From an uncultured Clostridia bacterium (GTDB lineage Bacteria; Bacillota; Clostridia; Oscillospirales; Ruminococcaceae), in the NCBI GenBank assembly GCA_947624555.1, contig CANQKW010000009.1, positions 1 to 53,909 on the forward strand: a stretch of 53,909 nucleotides of DNA, given 5' to 3'. A program made the position numbers and the translations under genes. The first letter of the stretch is position 1. Each line of letters starts with the position of its first letter. Below, one piece after another: positions 46,778-53,688 of the stretch. The notes under the pieces are model-generated. The model was given only the letters and a program-made list of their open reading frames with translations. It was not told the DNA's origin and searched no databases.

Positions 46778-47647
46778 ATGCGTGAAAAAGCGCCTGCTAC
46801 GATAAACGAGCAAATAAGGATTTTAAAGCTCAGAGGCTGTGTTATCGAAGACGAGAAAAAAGCACGGGATACTCTTAAATATATCAATTATTATCGGCTT
46901 GCAAACTATTTTGAGCCGTTTTCCGTCAGCAAGCACAAATATGAAGAGGGCACGACTTTCGAGAAAATCATAAGCGTGTACGAAATGGACAGAAAGCTCC
47001 GCAGTATTCTGCTGGCGGCTCTTGAAGAGATTGAAATTGCGCTCAGAGCGGCTATTTCAAACTATCACGCATTAAAATACGGTGCGTTGGGCTACCTCAA
47101 TCCGTCCTCGTTCAATCTTTCGCATAATCATCAGAGCTTTTTGTCACGCATAAATCACCTTATCGAGTCAAACGAAGAAAGAGAGTTCGTGCGTCACTAC
47201 AACGCAAAATACGGCGGAAAATTTCCGCTTTGGGTTATGATGGAGCTTTTTTCGTTCGGCACGCTTGCGTTTTTCTACAAGGATATGCAGAACAACGACA
47301 AGAAAATAATCGCAGACGAATATTACTCCTGCTCGCCGAACGAGCTGGACAACTGGATTTTCTGCCTGAACGAGCTGCGAAACTACTGTGCACACTACAA
47401 CAGGCTCTACGCAACACATTTCCCCGTAGAACCGAAAACTCCTAAGGATTATCCCGTAACTCTTCAGCCTGACGTTTTCGGATATATTATCGTGATGAAA
47501 CAGCTTTTCCGCGGTCACGAAAACTGGAACGAGCGAGTTGTAAAACCTATCTCCCGTATGCTGAAAAAGAATTCCGATATAATACGGCTTTCAGACCTCG
47601 GTTTCCCCGAAGGCTGGGAAACAATGATTGCTTTTACGGATTGTTGA
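46778..47647 (+). CDS. Abi_2/AbiD-AbiF-family protein with HEPN-type motifs
   Basis: 289 residues, soluble. ATINEQIRILKLRGCVIEDE and ARDTLKYINYYRLANYF are the Abi_2 start. ALEEIEIALRAAISNYHALK (Arg90, His97) and LNELRNYCAHYNRLY (Arg201, His206, Rx4H) fit HEPN ribonuclease motifs. The family includes abortive-infection proteins, whose HEPN domains are expected to cut RNA. It starts 25 nt after gpsA with GGAG upstream, leaving no room for the structured RNA found with some AbiF loci. A TerB-type gene follows after 13 nt. Phage defence is likely but not shown here. Confidence 0.82.
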   Translation: MREKAPATINEQIRILKLRGCVIEDEKKARDTLKYINYYRLANYFEPFSVSKHKYEEGTTFEKIISVYEMDRKLRSILLAALEEIEIALRAAISNYHALKYGALGYLNPSSFNLSHNHQSFLSRINHLIESNEEREFVRHYNAKYGGKFPLWVMMELFSFGTLAFFYKDMQNNDKKIIADEYYSCSPNELDNWIFCLNELRNYCAHYNRLYATHFPVEPKTPKDYPVTLQPDVFGYIIVMKQLFRGHENWNERVVKPISRMLKKNSDIIRLSDLGFPEGWETMIAFTDC

Positions 47648-47660
47648 GTTTGGTGATTTT

Positions 47661-49538
47661 ATGTCAAATAGTTTCAAAAAATTTATAAATACAAACGGCA
47701 AGACTCTCTCCGAAATAAGAGAAATTGTCAAAGAAATGACCCAAAAAACCGTAAAATCCATTATCAGAGATACAGAGAAAGAACTTCAAAGTGAAATTCG
47801 TAAAAAAATCAGAGAAGAAGTCGAGGACGCAGAAAAAACGTCAAAAAGAGCCGAAAAAATCCCCGAACCGCACTTTTTTGAAACTGACAAACCGCAAAAA
47901 GACCGTGAGGAGCTGCTCGCTCCCGATGAAATCGCTTATCCGCACGAAAGCATTCCCGATAACCTTACTCCCCGTGAGCAGGCTTTGATTGAGAAAATTT
48001 TTGAAATGCGAAAACTTCGGCAGATAACCTATAACGGATATATTGTACAGCGGTGTGCCGAAGTGACTTTTGTTATGCAGGGGGAATTTATGTCAGATGT
48101 GACGGACGATTATCCCCGAACTGCATTTTTCGGAATGTCAATGCCGATGTATGCGGCAATGTCAAACTCTCAGCTAAGGACATATTTCACCTGGAGAACC
48201 GACGCCCGACGGGGAAAATACCGTCAGACGGATAAACCGTATGTTCTCTTGTATGCGTATGAGCTGCTTAATAAAATCGGTACGGTATCTTCGACCGATG
48301 CGTTCGGGAAACTTCTTGACCTGTGGGAAAACGCCGATTTTGCAAAAAAATATCTCGATGAGCTTATGCCTCGCTGGATAAAGGACTTTTATGCATTTAA
48401 CAACGTTTCTGAGATTTACCCCGACATAAATAAATTCCTGAAATCCGACAACATATCCGAAACGGACAAAGCCATTTCGGAAATTCTTGAAAAGAACTAC
48501 AAAAACAAGCTGTCGTTTCTTGCGGAAAATTCAGCATATGACATTAAAAAAAGCATTTTTTTCACCGAAGAAAACAAGCCGCTTTTCGAGGAAGCAGCCG
48601 AAAATGTCCTTAATGCACTGGATAAATTTCTTACCGAAAAGGATATTGATATAGGAACGCTGCTTTGCGGACTTCCCAAAAAGGATCATTCCTGGAAACC
48701 GTTTGACAAAGCCTATGTAAATCTCGACAGAGCAGACGGATTTCACGCCGTGAAAATAAGCTCTTCGGAATATTACTGCATAAGACGTGGAGAGCCTACT
48801 CTGGAAAGTTTTGCTTTTTTCCCGCAAAGAGGATTTATCGGCTACATTTTGAAGTCGATCGAGGCTCAACTTCGCATTAACACGGGATTTAAGAGAAAAA
48901 TAGTCCCAAATGCGAATATGCTGCTAAATGACCTGAAAAACCGTGAAAAGCTGCTGAAAGCGGTAAGCGGCGAGGATTTCTCCGATACAATAAAAAAAGC
49001 GGTAGACGATTTCTGCACAAAAAAAGGGATTTCTCCGAAAAAAAGCTCTTCGGGAAAATCCGAAAACTACGGCTTTGATTATGTGCAGTATACGAGAAAA
49101 AATATCGAGATAGATGTTTCAAAGCTCGCTGAAATTCGTGCAAAATCGGATGAAACGGCAAGAAAGCTCATTATCGAAGAATCTCCCGATGAAGAATTTA
49201 TAAGAGAAATCTCCGAAAAAATCTCCGACGAGGAATTTGCGGAAAAAATCACGGAATACTCGAATTTTTCCGAAGAGCTTAATTTACCGCAGAATATTCC
49301 CGAAAATATCCCTGAAGAATGGCAAAATTTTGCAAGGAAAATAAATCCTGTTCAAAGGGAGATACTTTCTATCCTTGCAGAGGGAAAAAACGCAGACGAA
49401 TTTTGCAGGGAAAATAATCTTCTCCCCGAAACGATTTTCGAGGAGATAAACTGCAAAGCAATGGAAACTGTTCTTGATATTGTAATAGAACACGGAGAAA
49501 TTATCCCCGATTATCTTGGGATAGTAAAACTGCTCTAA
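47661..49538 (+). CDS. TerB_N/TerB_C-domain protein
   Basis: 625 residues. A charged N-terminal helix (about 10-60) is followed by the TerB_N pattern (about 150-220: MPMYAAMSNSQLRTYFTWRT and KPYVLLYAYELLNKIG). The C-terminal 75 residues fit TerB_C (INPVQREILSILAEGKNADE, LLPETIFEEINCKAMETVLD and VIEHGEIIPDYL). The middle is mostly helical with FFPQRGFIGYILKSIEAQLR. Such proteins occur in tellurite-type and defence loci, often with helicases, but no helicase is present. ATG 47661 follows GGTGA; the longer frame begins inside the Abi gene. Lys/Glu content is high. Confidence 0.78.
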   Translation: MSNSFKKFINTNGKTLSEIREIVKEMTQKTVKSIIRDTEKELQSEIRKKIREEVEDAEKTSKRAEKIPEPHFFETDKPQKDREELLAPDEIAYPHESIPDNLTPREQALIEKIFEMRKLRQITYNGYIVQRCAEVTFVMQGEFMSDVTDDYPRTAFFGMSMPMYAAMSNSQLRTYFTWRTDARRGKYRQTDKPYVLLYAYELLNKIGTVSSTDAFGKLLDLWENADFAKKYLDELMPRWIKDFYAFNNVSEIYPDINKFLKSDNISETDKAISEILEKNYKNKLSFLAENSAYDIKKSIFFTEENKPLFEEAAENVLNALDKFLTEKDIDIGTLLCGLPKKDHSWKPFDKAYVNLDRADGFHAVKISSSEYYCIRRGEPTLESFAFFPQRGFIGYILKSIEAQLRINTGFKRKIVPNANMLLNDLKNREKLLKAVSGEDFSDTIKKAVDDFCTKKGISPKKSSSGKSENYGFDYVQYTRKNIEIDVSKLAEIRAKSDETARKLIIEESPDEEFIREISEKISDEEFAEKITEYSNFSEELNLPQNIPENIPEEWQNFARKINPVQREILSILAEGKNADEFCRENNLLPETIFEEINCKAMETVLDIVIEHGEIIPDYLGIVKLL

Positions 49539-49561: not shown

Positions 49562-49592
49562 CGGGGGAAAACAATAGTTTTCCCCCGATTTT
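49562..49592. terminator. Terminator between the TerB gene and the hydrogenase-like gene
   Basis: A perfect 11-bp stem (49562-49572 with 49577-49587, loop AATA) separates converging genes; T-rich flanks occur on both strands. Confidence 0.88.
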
Positions 49593-49611: not shown

Positions 49612-51537
49612 TTATTTTCTCAGAACGCTTTCCGCTTTAGATACAAGTCCCTCGACCTGATTATTTATTTCGGAAACCTCGCCCATTGCGGCGTTAATAT
49701 CCGTGCCCTTGCCTAAAGTCGTGCTGATATTGTCGCTTACCTTATTCATCATTCCCTTGATTTCGTCCATTTTTTCGGTAACTGTCTTTAGGATATTATT
49801 TACCGTTTCAATATCCCCGAAAACAAGCTGATTGCTCTTTTCAGCCTCGGCAACTGCGCTCTGCGAGTGATTTGCGAGCTTTCCTACTTCGTGTGCAACT
49901 ACCGCAAATCCCTTTCCTGCCTGACCTGCCCTTGCAGCCTCAATGCTTGCGTTTATCGACAGAATATTGATTCTTCTTGCGATTTCGCTGATATTCTGCG
50001 TAGTTTCACTAAATCCCGCAACCGAATTATTTATTGACTGCATTGCGTTATTGATATTATCGTTGAGCGTAAGAAGTTCGTTTAAAATGTCCGACAAGCC
50101 TGTTATCTGGTCGAAATTCGTGGAATTAAGCTCAGAAATATCTCCGACAGCGTTTTTGACGTTGCCGATATTATATGTGAGCTTTGAAACGACCTGATTA
50201 AGCTCTGAGGTAACTTCTGCAATCGAGCGGTTGGTATCCTCGATAAGCAGGCGGTGTTCATCTTCCTGGTGCTGCATATACTCGTGGCAGCTTGTCATAT
50301 CCGAAACACCCTTGATAATAGCTCTTGCCATCTCCCGACAGGTTCCAAATCCGCAGGAGTGACAGTTATAATTACGCTGTGTGGCTGTGATTTTGCCCAT
50401 TTTTGTGAGCATTTCATCTATCTGATTTTCGGTAACTTCAATATCATTGATGTCAATAGGAGTATATGTTCTGATAAAATCATCAAGATTAAGCGCCTTG
50501 TCAAACTTCAAAAACTGCTTGTCCCTGTGTTTTCTGTCGAATTTTACACGCTTTGTGCGGTTGTATTTTTCGATACCGTTCATAATGCCGCTCATACGGT
50601 AAATCGACATCTGCTTGCCGATAGCAGGACCGCTTCCGCAGCCTTTATCGCAGGAAAGAACGTCGAAAACGTCGGGCAGATCCCTTTCCGCAATGGTAGA
50701 ATACATCGAAAGATTTTTGTAAACCGACTCTGTTCCCTCTGACGTAATGACGTTGAGCAGGGGATTTTCCAGCTCCAGACAAGCCTTTAGTCCGCCGGGA
50801 CGGGGATAAACTGCGCCCATCTGACCGCCTGCTCCCGAAAACTCGAAATCAGAGCGTACATTTTTCATATTTTCAAACTTTATTCCGTTATCGTTAAGCA
50901 GTTTTCCCAAACGGTCAAACGTAACGTTATAATCGACCAGACCCGTTTCGATAAATTCATCTCTTTTTGCGATGCAGGGAGAGAAAGCGACTATTTTTGC
51001 GTCCTCGTTGAGATACCTTTTAAGGTAGACCGCAAGGCACAGCATAGGCGAATGTACGGGCGAAAGGTGGCTCAGCGAGTCGTGACAGTATCTTCTCATA
51101 TAATTTACGATAGCCGGGCAGGGCTGTGAAATGACCTTAGCCCCCTTATGCTTTTCCAGATAACGGATATGCGCCCACGTACAAATATCAGCGCCGAACG
51201 AAACGTCATAAATCTTGCTTACACCGTTTTTTACGAGATAACCAAGCACATTTCTCCAACAACCGTCAAAGGAAACCTTTACCGCAGGCGCACAAATTCC
51301 GATAATTTTAACGCCTTTTTTGAGGTCTGCCCAGAAACGCTCGGTGTCGTCCTCATAACTTCTTGCGCCGTGACTGCAAGCCTTTACGCACGCACCGCAG
51401 CGAATACATCTTTCGGGATTGATATTGAATATCTTTCTGCCGTTTTCATCGTACTCAACGGTATTTGCCTCGACCGCAGGACAAACTCTTATGCAGTTGT
51501 TACAGGCAACACATTTTGATGCATCAAATGAAATCAT
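49612..51537 (-). CDS. [FeFe]-hydrogenase-like sensor fused to a methyl-accepting chemotaxis signalling domain
   Basis: 641 residues, no membrane helix. Two 4Fe-4S clusters: Cys9/12/15/19 and Cys44/47/50/54. A hydrogenase large-subunit domain (about 75-330) has all four likely H-cluster cysteines in variant motifs: Cys140 (QPCPA), Cys188 (SPCIAK), Cys296 and Cys300 ([11 protein letters not shown]). A further 4Fe-4S domain has Cys392/395/400/417. From about 430 to the end is a coiled-coil MCP signalling domain with the [20 protein letters not shown] tip (529-548). Probably senses H2 or redox state rather than making H2. GAAAGGGG precedes the ATG. Confidence 0.9.
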
Positions 51538-51597: not shown

Positions 51598-51631
51598 AAA
51601 AAAACAGGAAAAGAGGGTTATTCTCTTTTCC
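51598..51631 (-). terminator. Terminator of rny
   Basis: A 9-bp stem (51607-51615 with 51623-51631) is followed on the minus strand by TGTTTTTTT, suggesting that the hydrogenase-like gene downstream has its own promoter. I could not identify that promoter confidently. Confidence 0.8.
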
Positions 51632-51646
51632 CGGTTAAAAACGAAA

Positions 51647-53251
51647 TTATTTCGCATAGTCAACGGTTCTGCTTTCACGGATAAGATTAACCTTAATCTG
51701 TCCGGGATAATCCATTTCCGCCTCAATTCTTTTGGCAATATCCCTTGCCAGAACCTTCATATCGTCATCGTTTATCTGCTCAGGCTTGACCATAATGCGA
51801 ACCTCTCGTCCTGCCTGAATAGCAAACGACTTTTCTACTCCGTTATAGGAATTGCAAATCTCCTCAAGCTTTTCAAGACGCTTGATATAGTTCTCGTAAT
51901 TCTCCGAACGAGCCGCCGGTCTTGCCGCACTTATTGCGTCTGCCGCCTGAACGAGGCAGGCAATGACCGTTCTGCACTCAACGTCGCCGTGGTGAGCCTC
52001 GATTGCGTGAATGACCTCAGGGTTTTCCTTGTACTTCTTGCAGACATCAACGCCTATCTGTACGTGAGAGCCTTCAATTTCGTGGTCGAGCGATTTTCCT
52101 ATATCGTGCAGAAGTCCTGCTCTTCTTGCAAGAGCTGCGTCAACGCCCAACTCTGACGCCATAATTCCTGCCAAATGCGCAACCTCAATCGAGTGATTGA
52201 GAACATTCTGTCTGAACGAAGTCCTGTATTTAAGACGACCGATAAGTCTTACAAGCTCGTGGTTAAGACCGTTTACATTTGTTTCAAGAACGGCTCTCTG
52301 ACCCTCCTGCTTAATGCGAAGTTCAACCTCCTTGCGAGCCTTGTCGACTGTTTCCTCAATTCTTGCGGGGTGTATTCTTCCGTCCTGGATAAGACGTTCA
52401 AGAGCTATCCTTGCAATTTCTCTTCTTACGTGGTCAAAACAGGACAGCGTGATAGCCTCCGGAGTATCGTCGATAATAAGGTCAACGCCCGTAAGCGTTT
52501 CAAGCGCCCTGATATTGCGTCCCTCACGTCCGATAATGCGTCCTTTCATCTCGTCGTTAGGGATAGCTACTACCGACACTGCCGATTCGGACACGGTATC
52601 GGCGGCGAGTCTTGAAATAGCGAGAGATATGTACTCTCTTGCCTTTTCATCGCACTCGTCCTTGAGTTTTTGCTCATAATACGAGATTTTCAGAGCCTTT
52701 TCGTGATTAAGCTCGGTATCGAGCATTTGCAGCAGATGTTCCTTAGCCTGTTCCGCAGTAAAGCCCGAAATCTTCTCGAGAATATCCATCTGGCTGGATT
52801 TTAACTGTTCAGCCTCAGCGATTTTCTCGTCAGCCTTCTTGTGTTTCTGGTGGAGCTGTTCCTCCAGCTTTTCCATTTTGTCGGTTTTCTTGTCGAGATT
52901 TTCTTCCTTTTGAGCAATTCTGCGCTCCGAACGAGAAACCTCTCCTCTTCGCTCTTTCAACTCTTTTTCGGCGTCTGCTTTTAATCTGTTGATTTCCTTT
53001 TCGGCGTCGGTGCGAAGTGCATAAATCTCGTCCTTAGCCTCAACGAGAGCGGATTTTTTCATTGATTCCGCTTTTTCGGACGCCTCTTCGAGTATTCTCG
53101 CTGATTCTTTTTCAGCGGACTCGAACTGTGCCTCAGCGGTCTTAATGCGGTGTTTTATGCCGGACTTAAAGCAAATAAAACCGCTTACCACTGCGCCGAC
53201 AACCAATGCCGCCAGACCTATCAGCAAAGCGACATAAAGTTCGACTTGCAT
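51647..53251 (-). CDS. rny: Ribonuclease Y
   Basis: 534 residues, family length. One N-terminal membrane helix (about 5-27), a long charged coiled coil (about 35-210), a KH domain ([20 protein letters not shown]), an HD domain with [18 protein letters not shown] and EAHHGDVE, and the [16 protein letters not shown] end. It is the membrane-bound endonuclease that starts mRNA decay. ATG 53251 is set by GAGGAGG and the family's hydrophobic N-terminus; the longer frame to 53389 is unrelated. The leader from the promoter is about 430 nt. Confidence 0.96.
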
Positions 53252-53688
53252 TGTCGTTTTCCCCTCCTCAATATCATTGTCGCGTGCTGTCTGCCAACCG
53301 CACGCAAAAGAATTTCGGCGGAAAAATATACAATTTATGAAAAATTTGCGGCTATTTTCAGAAATGCGAGCAAACCAACCTACAGGCACGGCAAAATCCG
53401 CCCTGCCCGTGCAAACTCTTCAGCCGCTGTGATACCCCCTGTTGAACAAACTTATCTTTCTTCATTATTTTTAGAAAACGGATAAAAATAATATATCGGG
53501 AAAGTACGCCGACTAAATGCGTGCATTTTCCCTAAAGCGGTCTGTGCCGCAAAAAAGAATAGAAATGTAAATTAAAGGATTTCTCCGTAAATCGTACATT
53601 CGCCGCCTTAACGTTATAATAAACAAAGCGTCATAAACGTCGGGGGCAGTTTTTCGGAATTTATCTCTCCAAAAAACAGCCTATACAT

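Follow-up and report, generated by a model that had tools for sequence, protein, structure and literature searches.

What does a protein perceive, and to what does it report, when an [FeFe]-hydrogenase-like H-domain and the hairpin of a methyl-accepting chemotaxis protein (MCP) are carried on the same polypeptide? The question is raised by a gene of an uncultured Clostridia bacterium of the family Ruminococcaceae (assembly GCA_947624555.1; genome 98.85% complete). The DNA analysed, positions 1 to 53,909 of contig CANQKW010000009.1 (contig C9 below), is referred to as the window; other contigs of the same genome are labelled C, genomes of its family G, and loci L.

Organization of the fusion protein

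A single open reading frame, read from the minus strand, encodes all of the parts discussed below. The gene and its domains are as follows.

49612..51537, minus strand: hydS-mcp fusion gene, 641 amino acids (open reading frame with ATG start; domains)
51361..51534, minus strand: two-cluster ferredoxin domain, residues 2-59 (Pfam Fer4 families)
50626..51309, minus strand: H-domain (Fe_hyd_lg_C), residues 77-304 (Pfam; a genome search gave identical coordinates)
50287..50370, minus strand: C-terminal Fe-S domain, residues 390-417, C392-x2-C395-x4-C400-x16-C417 (Pfam FeS)
49930..50292, minus strand: descending helix of the receptor hairpin, residues 416-536 (AlphaFold2 model, pLDDT about 61-73)
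49894..49953, minus strand: predicted kinase-binding tip, residues 529-548 (sequence)
49618..49926, minus strand: ascending helix, residues 538-640 (AlphaFold2 model, pLDDT in the same range)

Four Pfam matches exceed their cut-offs: Fer4_10 (residues 2-54), Fe_hyd_lg_C (77-304, 5.2e-32), FeS (390-417), and MCPsignal (493-627, 4e-23). Together with the confirmed reading frame, they bear out the original prediction that ferredoxin clusters, an H-domain, a further Fe-S domain, and an MCP hairpin are joined in one protein. The variant motifs attributed to the H-domain are likewise present as described, namely QPCPA (C140), SPCIAK (C188, K191), and the motif that contains C296 and C300. In a PDB sequence search, the front half of the protein matched hydrogenases and the back half matched MCPs. 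The AlphaFold2 model, built from a 41-row alignment, has a mean pLDDT of 81, with the Fe-S and H parts mostly at 80-97 and a hairpin that turns at residue 537. The top PDB matches of the model in Foldseek are [FeFe]-hydrogenases (8zqd_A, E 1.6e-18, TM 0.48 over the whole query).

The protein was expected to lack a membrane helix, and no hydropathy segment in it rises above the threshold, whereas six other MCPs of the same genome have at least two such segments each (two further MCP stretches lie outside the motif used and were left out). No PAS domain was detected in the fusion at 0.001 or in 10 relatives at 0.01.

Relatives and phylogeny

The search found 103 relatives. The best 80 of these and the protein itself make up the 81 proteins compared here, of which 41 were aligned; the alignment excludes L012, the carrier of a deletion. 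Record titles, mostly MAG labels, place the relatives in Bacillota, Fibrobacterota, Cloacimonadota, Pseudomonadota, and Myxococcota. The fusion architecture recurs over the whole length in 22 other genomes (L010-L031, of which L029 is truncated by a contig end) at 39-79% identity. This recurrence rules out a chance or frameshift fusion as well as an assembly artefact.

The tip motif occurs in 68 of the 81 proteins, a share biased upward because three of the six peptides used as queries are taken from regions C-terminal to the H-domain (one from the Fe-S domain there and two from the hairpin). Among the 13 proteins without the motif, L080 is truncated, L085 has a divergent tip, and the other 11 are of a coiled-coil type. 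The latter are the Ruminococcus-type relatives (L041, L053, L054, L060, L062, L065, L071, L077, L078, L086, and L089), which end in a coiled coil without the tip; the two of them that were scanned have no PAS or MCP motif. One of these, L060 of Ruminococcus flavefaciens, has no PAS or MCP match at E 0.01, which speaks against the statement in the original prediction that Ruminococcus-type sensors end in PAS domains.

A tree of 79 front parts, made by a quick method and rooted at the midpoint (L080, L088, and two hydrogenases of the same genome were left out), places the window protein in a clade of 11 with a support of 100. The clade is nested in a set of 33, within which the 11 tipless Ruminococcus-type proteins form one branch, also with a support of 100. 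The label 'short tip' in the tree was assigned by exclusion, the arm lengths being known for part of those proteins. If the root lies outside this set, the simplest reading is that the tip was lost in the Ruminococcus-type branch.

Gene neighbourhood

Three features flank the fusion gene.

51647..53389, minus strand: RNase Y gene, adjacent to the fusion gene on its upstream side (TIGR03319, 697 bits)
51605..51633, minus strand: terminator-like hairpin between the RNase Y gene and the fusion gene (consensus scan only)
49562..49587, minus strand, usable on either strand: terminator-like hairpin behind the fusion gene (consensus scan only)

Because a terminator-like hairpin separates it from the RNase Y gene, the fusion gene is probably transcribed alone. 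An RNase Y-like reading frame, judged by its N-terminus, lies directly upstream of the fusion at all eight close-clade loci inspected, and the RNase Y gene is thus a neighbour conserved across the clade, distinct from the sensor. On the other side of the fusion, at 46778-49538 of the window, are an Abi_2 (PF07751) gene and then a TerB_N/TerB_C gene; reading frames that resemble this pair occupy the corresponding position in L010 and L011, and none was seen there in L013-L016.

The receptor hairpin and its output

The hairpin tip had been described as complete, and this agrees with the MCPsignal match above its cut-off and with the tip motif. Over the 41 aligned rows N529 is invariant, and E533, A534, R536, G538, G541, and F544 are at least 90% conserved. 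Judged by its residues, the tip is of the predicted kind that binds CheA and CheW.

Partners for such a tip are encoded in the genome. MCPsignal exceeds its cut-off in ten genes (a count of places). CheW domains occur at three places, on contigs C2 and C28 only, which agrees with the earlier remark that no che gene is nearby as far as cheA and cheW in the window are concerned: the CheW-domain search found neither on contig C9. Contig C28 holds a run of cheA, cheW, cheR, and cheB, the one cheA-cheW operon found by the CheW search; CheB is above its NCBIfam cut-off, and CheA and CheR are best matches yet below theirs. A CheW-receiver (CheV-like) protein is encoded on contig C2. The proposed check of the same genome for chemotaxis genes thus yielded CheA, CheW, CheR, CheB, and flagellin, so that the tip does not lack a possible reader.

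Six of the 80 loci of relatives, many of which have short flanks, place the fusion 3.7-5.7 kb upstream of che genes on the same strand. In L015, L016, and L030 it lies 3.7-5.7 kb upstream of cheA, and in L021, L023, and L025 it lies 3.9 kb upstream of cheR, cheB, and cheA. Apart from the block of RNase Y and fusion genes, which it lacks, contig C28 is collinear with L015, L016, and L030. This gene pair was therefore probably once linked to the che genes and then relocated in the present genome.

Flagellin exceeds its cut-off in this genome, and in 25 of the 27 genomes with a tipped relative versus one of the six without a tip (Fisher 0.0005, in a test that ignores kinship). Flagellin is absent from five of the six hosts of tipless Ruminococcus-type proteins tested.

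Alternatively, the hairpin could signal to something other than the flagellar CheA array, be it a different partner of coiled-coil type or an array of its own. In accordance with this, the distance from the tip motif to the protein end is 113 residues, compared with 137-143 in the six other MCPs of the genome, and a shared array is thus not assured; fusion-type tips carry R, K, or Q where those six carry F; and cheA and cheW lie outside the window. A further point in its favour comes from the CheR/CheB methylation motif, sought in a strict and a loose pattern: the fusion has no match to either, and the loose motif is present in all six other MCPs. Adaptation is for this reason probably weak or achieved by other means, a CheV-like protein being available. 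Against another partner stand the single cheA-cheW operon of the genome, the che linkage in six relatives, and the association of flagellin with the tip, and we consider such a partner improbable. Chemotaxis as the output of the protein has good support.

The H-domain and its pocket

With respect to the input, the four cluster sites comprise 16 cysteines, none of which varies among the 41 aligned proteins. Eight of these cysteines belong to the ferredoxin domain (C9, C12, C15, C19, C44, C47, C50, and C54), and C140, C188, C296, and C300 are the ligands of the H-cluster in a domain that exceeds the PF02906 cut-off; the claim that every cysteine expected for an H-cluster is present thus stands. 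S163, P164, and P84, which we take to correspond to S323, P324, and P231 of CpI, are invariant as well. K191, presumably the equivalent of CpI K358, is retained in 9 of the 10 rows that represent the maturase-free clade, in 6 of 7 rows from hosts with HydF and HydG, and in all 24 remaining rows.

The residues of the proton relay are different. P139, S186, and L294 stand at the places of CpI C299, M353, and M497, and the positions of CpI E279 and E282 are not Glu in an alignment with the HydA of the same genome, where a four-residue gap makes the partners (H123 and Y126) uncertain. Since the canonical relay (C299, E279, and E282 of CpI) is absent, slow turnover is expected, a property that would be suited to sensing rather than to bulk catalysis.

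These features bear on a different view of the input. It holds that the H-cluster is no longer built in this lineage, that the H-domain carries the [4Fe-4S] part only, and that the protein, a receptor for redox state or oxygen, uses its [4Fe-4S] clusters to read ferredoxin or the cell potential and still signals to CheA. The change of the relay Cys to Pro fits this view, but Pro is a recorded residue at that position, being found in about 10% of sensory enzymes next to Ala in about 43% and Cys in 17% (PMC10055695, excerpt). The pocket is also eroded in two of the 11 clade members: L016 has N, T, A, and Q at positions 123, 139, 191, and 294, and L012 lacks six residues, S159 among them. On the other hand, the residues whose counterparts in CpI face only the [2Fe] subsite are as conserved in the clade as in seven relatives with HydF and HydG. 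As for L016 (7654-9576), the fusion with the four pocket changes, its host is the sole clade genome without a flagellin match above the cut-off, and decay of the sensor alongside loss of motility is possible there.

Maturation proteins

The maturases, too, provide an argument for redox sensing alone. HydE, HydF, and HydG are not found above the curated cut-offs in the present genome, and HydF and HydG are absent above cut-off from all 11 clade genomes (HydE was searched in the present genome only). The loading of the [2Fe] subsite is therefore not to be taken for granted. An overlooked HydG or HydE was ruled out, as the match on contig C29, located in a cluster of thi genes, is ThiH (TIGR02351, 521 bits, cut-off 380). 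An overlooked HydF was ruled out too, the top matches spanning the GTPase part only (all 22 candidates scored). The gap is not general among relatives: among 34 genomes with relatives, 14 have HydF and 15 have HydG above cut-off, and the 12 other genomes with a long-hairpin fusion (L018-L027, L029, and L031) include six with both proteins, three with one of the two, and three with neither. Arguing against redox sensing alone, the present genome keeps two hydrogenases above curated [FeFe] cut-offs, one of group A (442 bits, cut-off 406), which adjoins NuoE- and NuoF-like genes, and one of group B1 (561, cut-off 450). On balance, we regard the loss of the H-cluster as a substantial but lesser possibility.

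The gap extends to the family, in which 143 of 148 genomes have an H-domain. Among these 143, HydF and HydG are both found in 64, HydF only in 15, HydG only in 2, and neither above cut-off in 62, counts in which HydF may be overlooked, as at most 11 HydF candidates per genome were scored (for HydG every candidate was scored in the listed rows). One of the 62, G175, consists of one contig (2.95 Mb), and the three of its hydrogenases that were examined have canonical motifs and exceed the group A cut-off. G068, G036, and G161, of two or three contigs each, have such hydrogenases likewise. In these single- or few-contig genomes, hydrogenases above a curated cut-off (group A6 or group A) thus occur without HydF or HydG above cut-off. 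Canonical motifs are present in all seven hydrogenases examined from these four genomes (L103-L108 and L110; L109, from G049, is outside the count), and the six scanned exceed the group A cut-off. The reverse situation is seen in G096 (0.9 Mb, 97% complete), where HydF and HydG are above cut-off and Fe_hyd_lg_C has no match. A few species with hydrogenases and without maturases are already in print (PMC3226654; PMC4967309), and the excerpts of the literature at hand contain general statements only by way of explanation.

Model of signalling

Two routes are to be considered: either an H-cluster is assembled via a novel pathway, or redox is sensed through the [4Fe-4S] clusters alone. H2 as the input would need a maturation route not seen in the present genome and is uncertain because the maturases are missing. 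Conservation of the pocket, and the presence of canonical hydrogenases in this genome, nevertheless make it slightly more probable than sensing of redox alone. The reading that we favour, with a little better than even confidence, is that the protein is a soluble group C2-type chemoreceptor in which H2 or the low-potential electron pool modulates CheA. According to this model, H2 at the H-cluster, or the low-potential electron pool of the cell, would reduce the chain of clusters. The redox state of the C-terminal [4Fe-4S] cluster, located at the foot of the hairpin, would then alter helix packing, and the shift in packing is predicted to change the activity of CheA. The cell would in this way swim according to H2 or to its redox state.

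A broader proposal is that the clade, and with it a large part of the family, makes H-clusters by a novel route that dispenses with HydE, HydF, and HydG, and that a soluble H2 receptor with one such cluster directs swimming; this proposal is tentative and on the unlikely side. The architecture already belongs to a known class, and it is the maturase gap, rather than the fusion, that merits the attention of specialists. Either many of the hydrogenases in databases do not act as such in vivo, or there is a second route of H-cluster assembly. The relatives offer a comparable pair in this respect, near-identical sensors from maturase-bearing hosts on the one side and from maturase-free hosts on the other. 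H2 serves as the central currency in anaerobic guts. A tested H2 chemoreceptor was not found in the excerpts of the literature available.

Comparison with known systems

H-domain sensors of termite-gut treponemes were reportedly described by Ballor, Paulsen and Leadbetter in 2012 and are said to be possibly tied to methylation and chemotaxis; no treponeme is among the listed loci of relatives. HydDB defines three sensory groups of [FeFe]-hydrogenases, all putative: C1, linked to histidine kinases, C2, 'Chemotactic (putative)' and MCP-linked, and C3, linked to phosphatases (PMC5037454). As C2 was defined in 2016, the fusion is not the new departure from PAS-type sensors that it had seemed. A later paper repeats the description of C2 and discards its own C2 hits (PMC9431212). 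In the excerpts of the literature available, only these two sources mention fusions of this kind.

By architecture, the fusion fits group C2. Like the members of that group, it is an H-domain protein tied to a methyl-accepting chemotaxis output, a role that is putative in HydDB, and its MCPsignal domain (residues 493-627) is in the same chain. Maturase-free hosts, such as the present genome, are not mentioned in the excerpt of HydDB (PMC5037454). The Cx2Cx4Cx16C spacing of the C-terminal cluster matches the motif reported for groups C and D of HydS (PMC8163306), and the fusion combines it with non-canonical relay residues, as these groups do.

Thermotoga maritima HydS (group C, M2f) shares with the fusion the two N-terminal clusters, an H-domain in which the relay Cys and the Met residues are altered, and the C-terminal Cx2Cx4Cx16C motif, but it ends in PAS and the fusion in an MCP hairpin (PMC10055695; PMC8163306; PMC13104023). 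The fusion has no PAS domain behind its C-terminal cluster, the arrangement of the C1 type and of T. maritima. In control searches, T. maritima, identified as the sole control genome with Fe_hyd_lg_C, exceeded the HydF, HydG, and HydE cut-offs, in contrast to the present genome. Thermoanaerobacter mathranii HydS (group D, M2e), unlike the fusion, is without a fused output domain. It has the same three cluster-binding parts as the fusion, and a hydroxyl residue replaces Met353 in it, as Ser186 does here.
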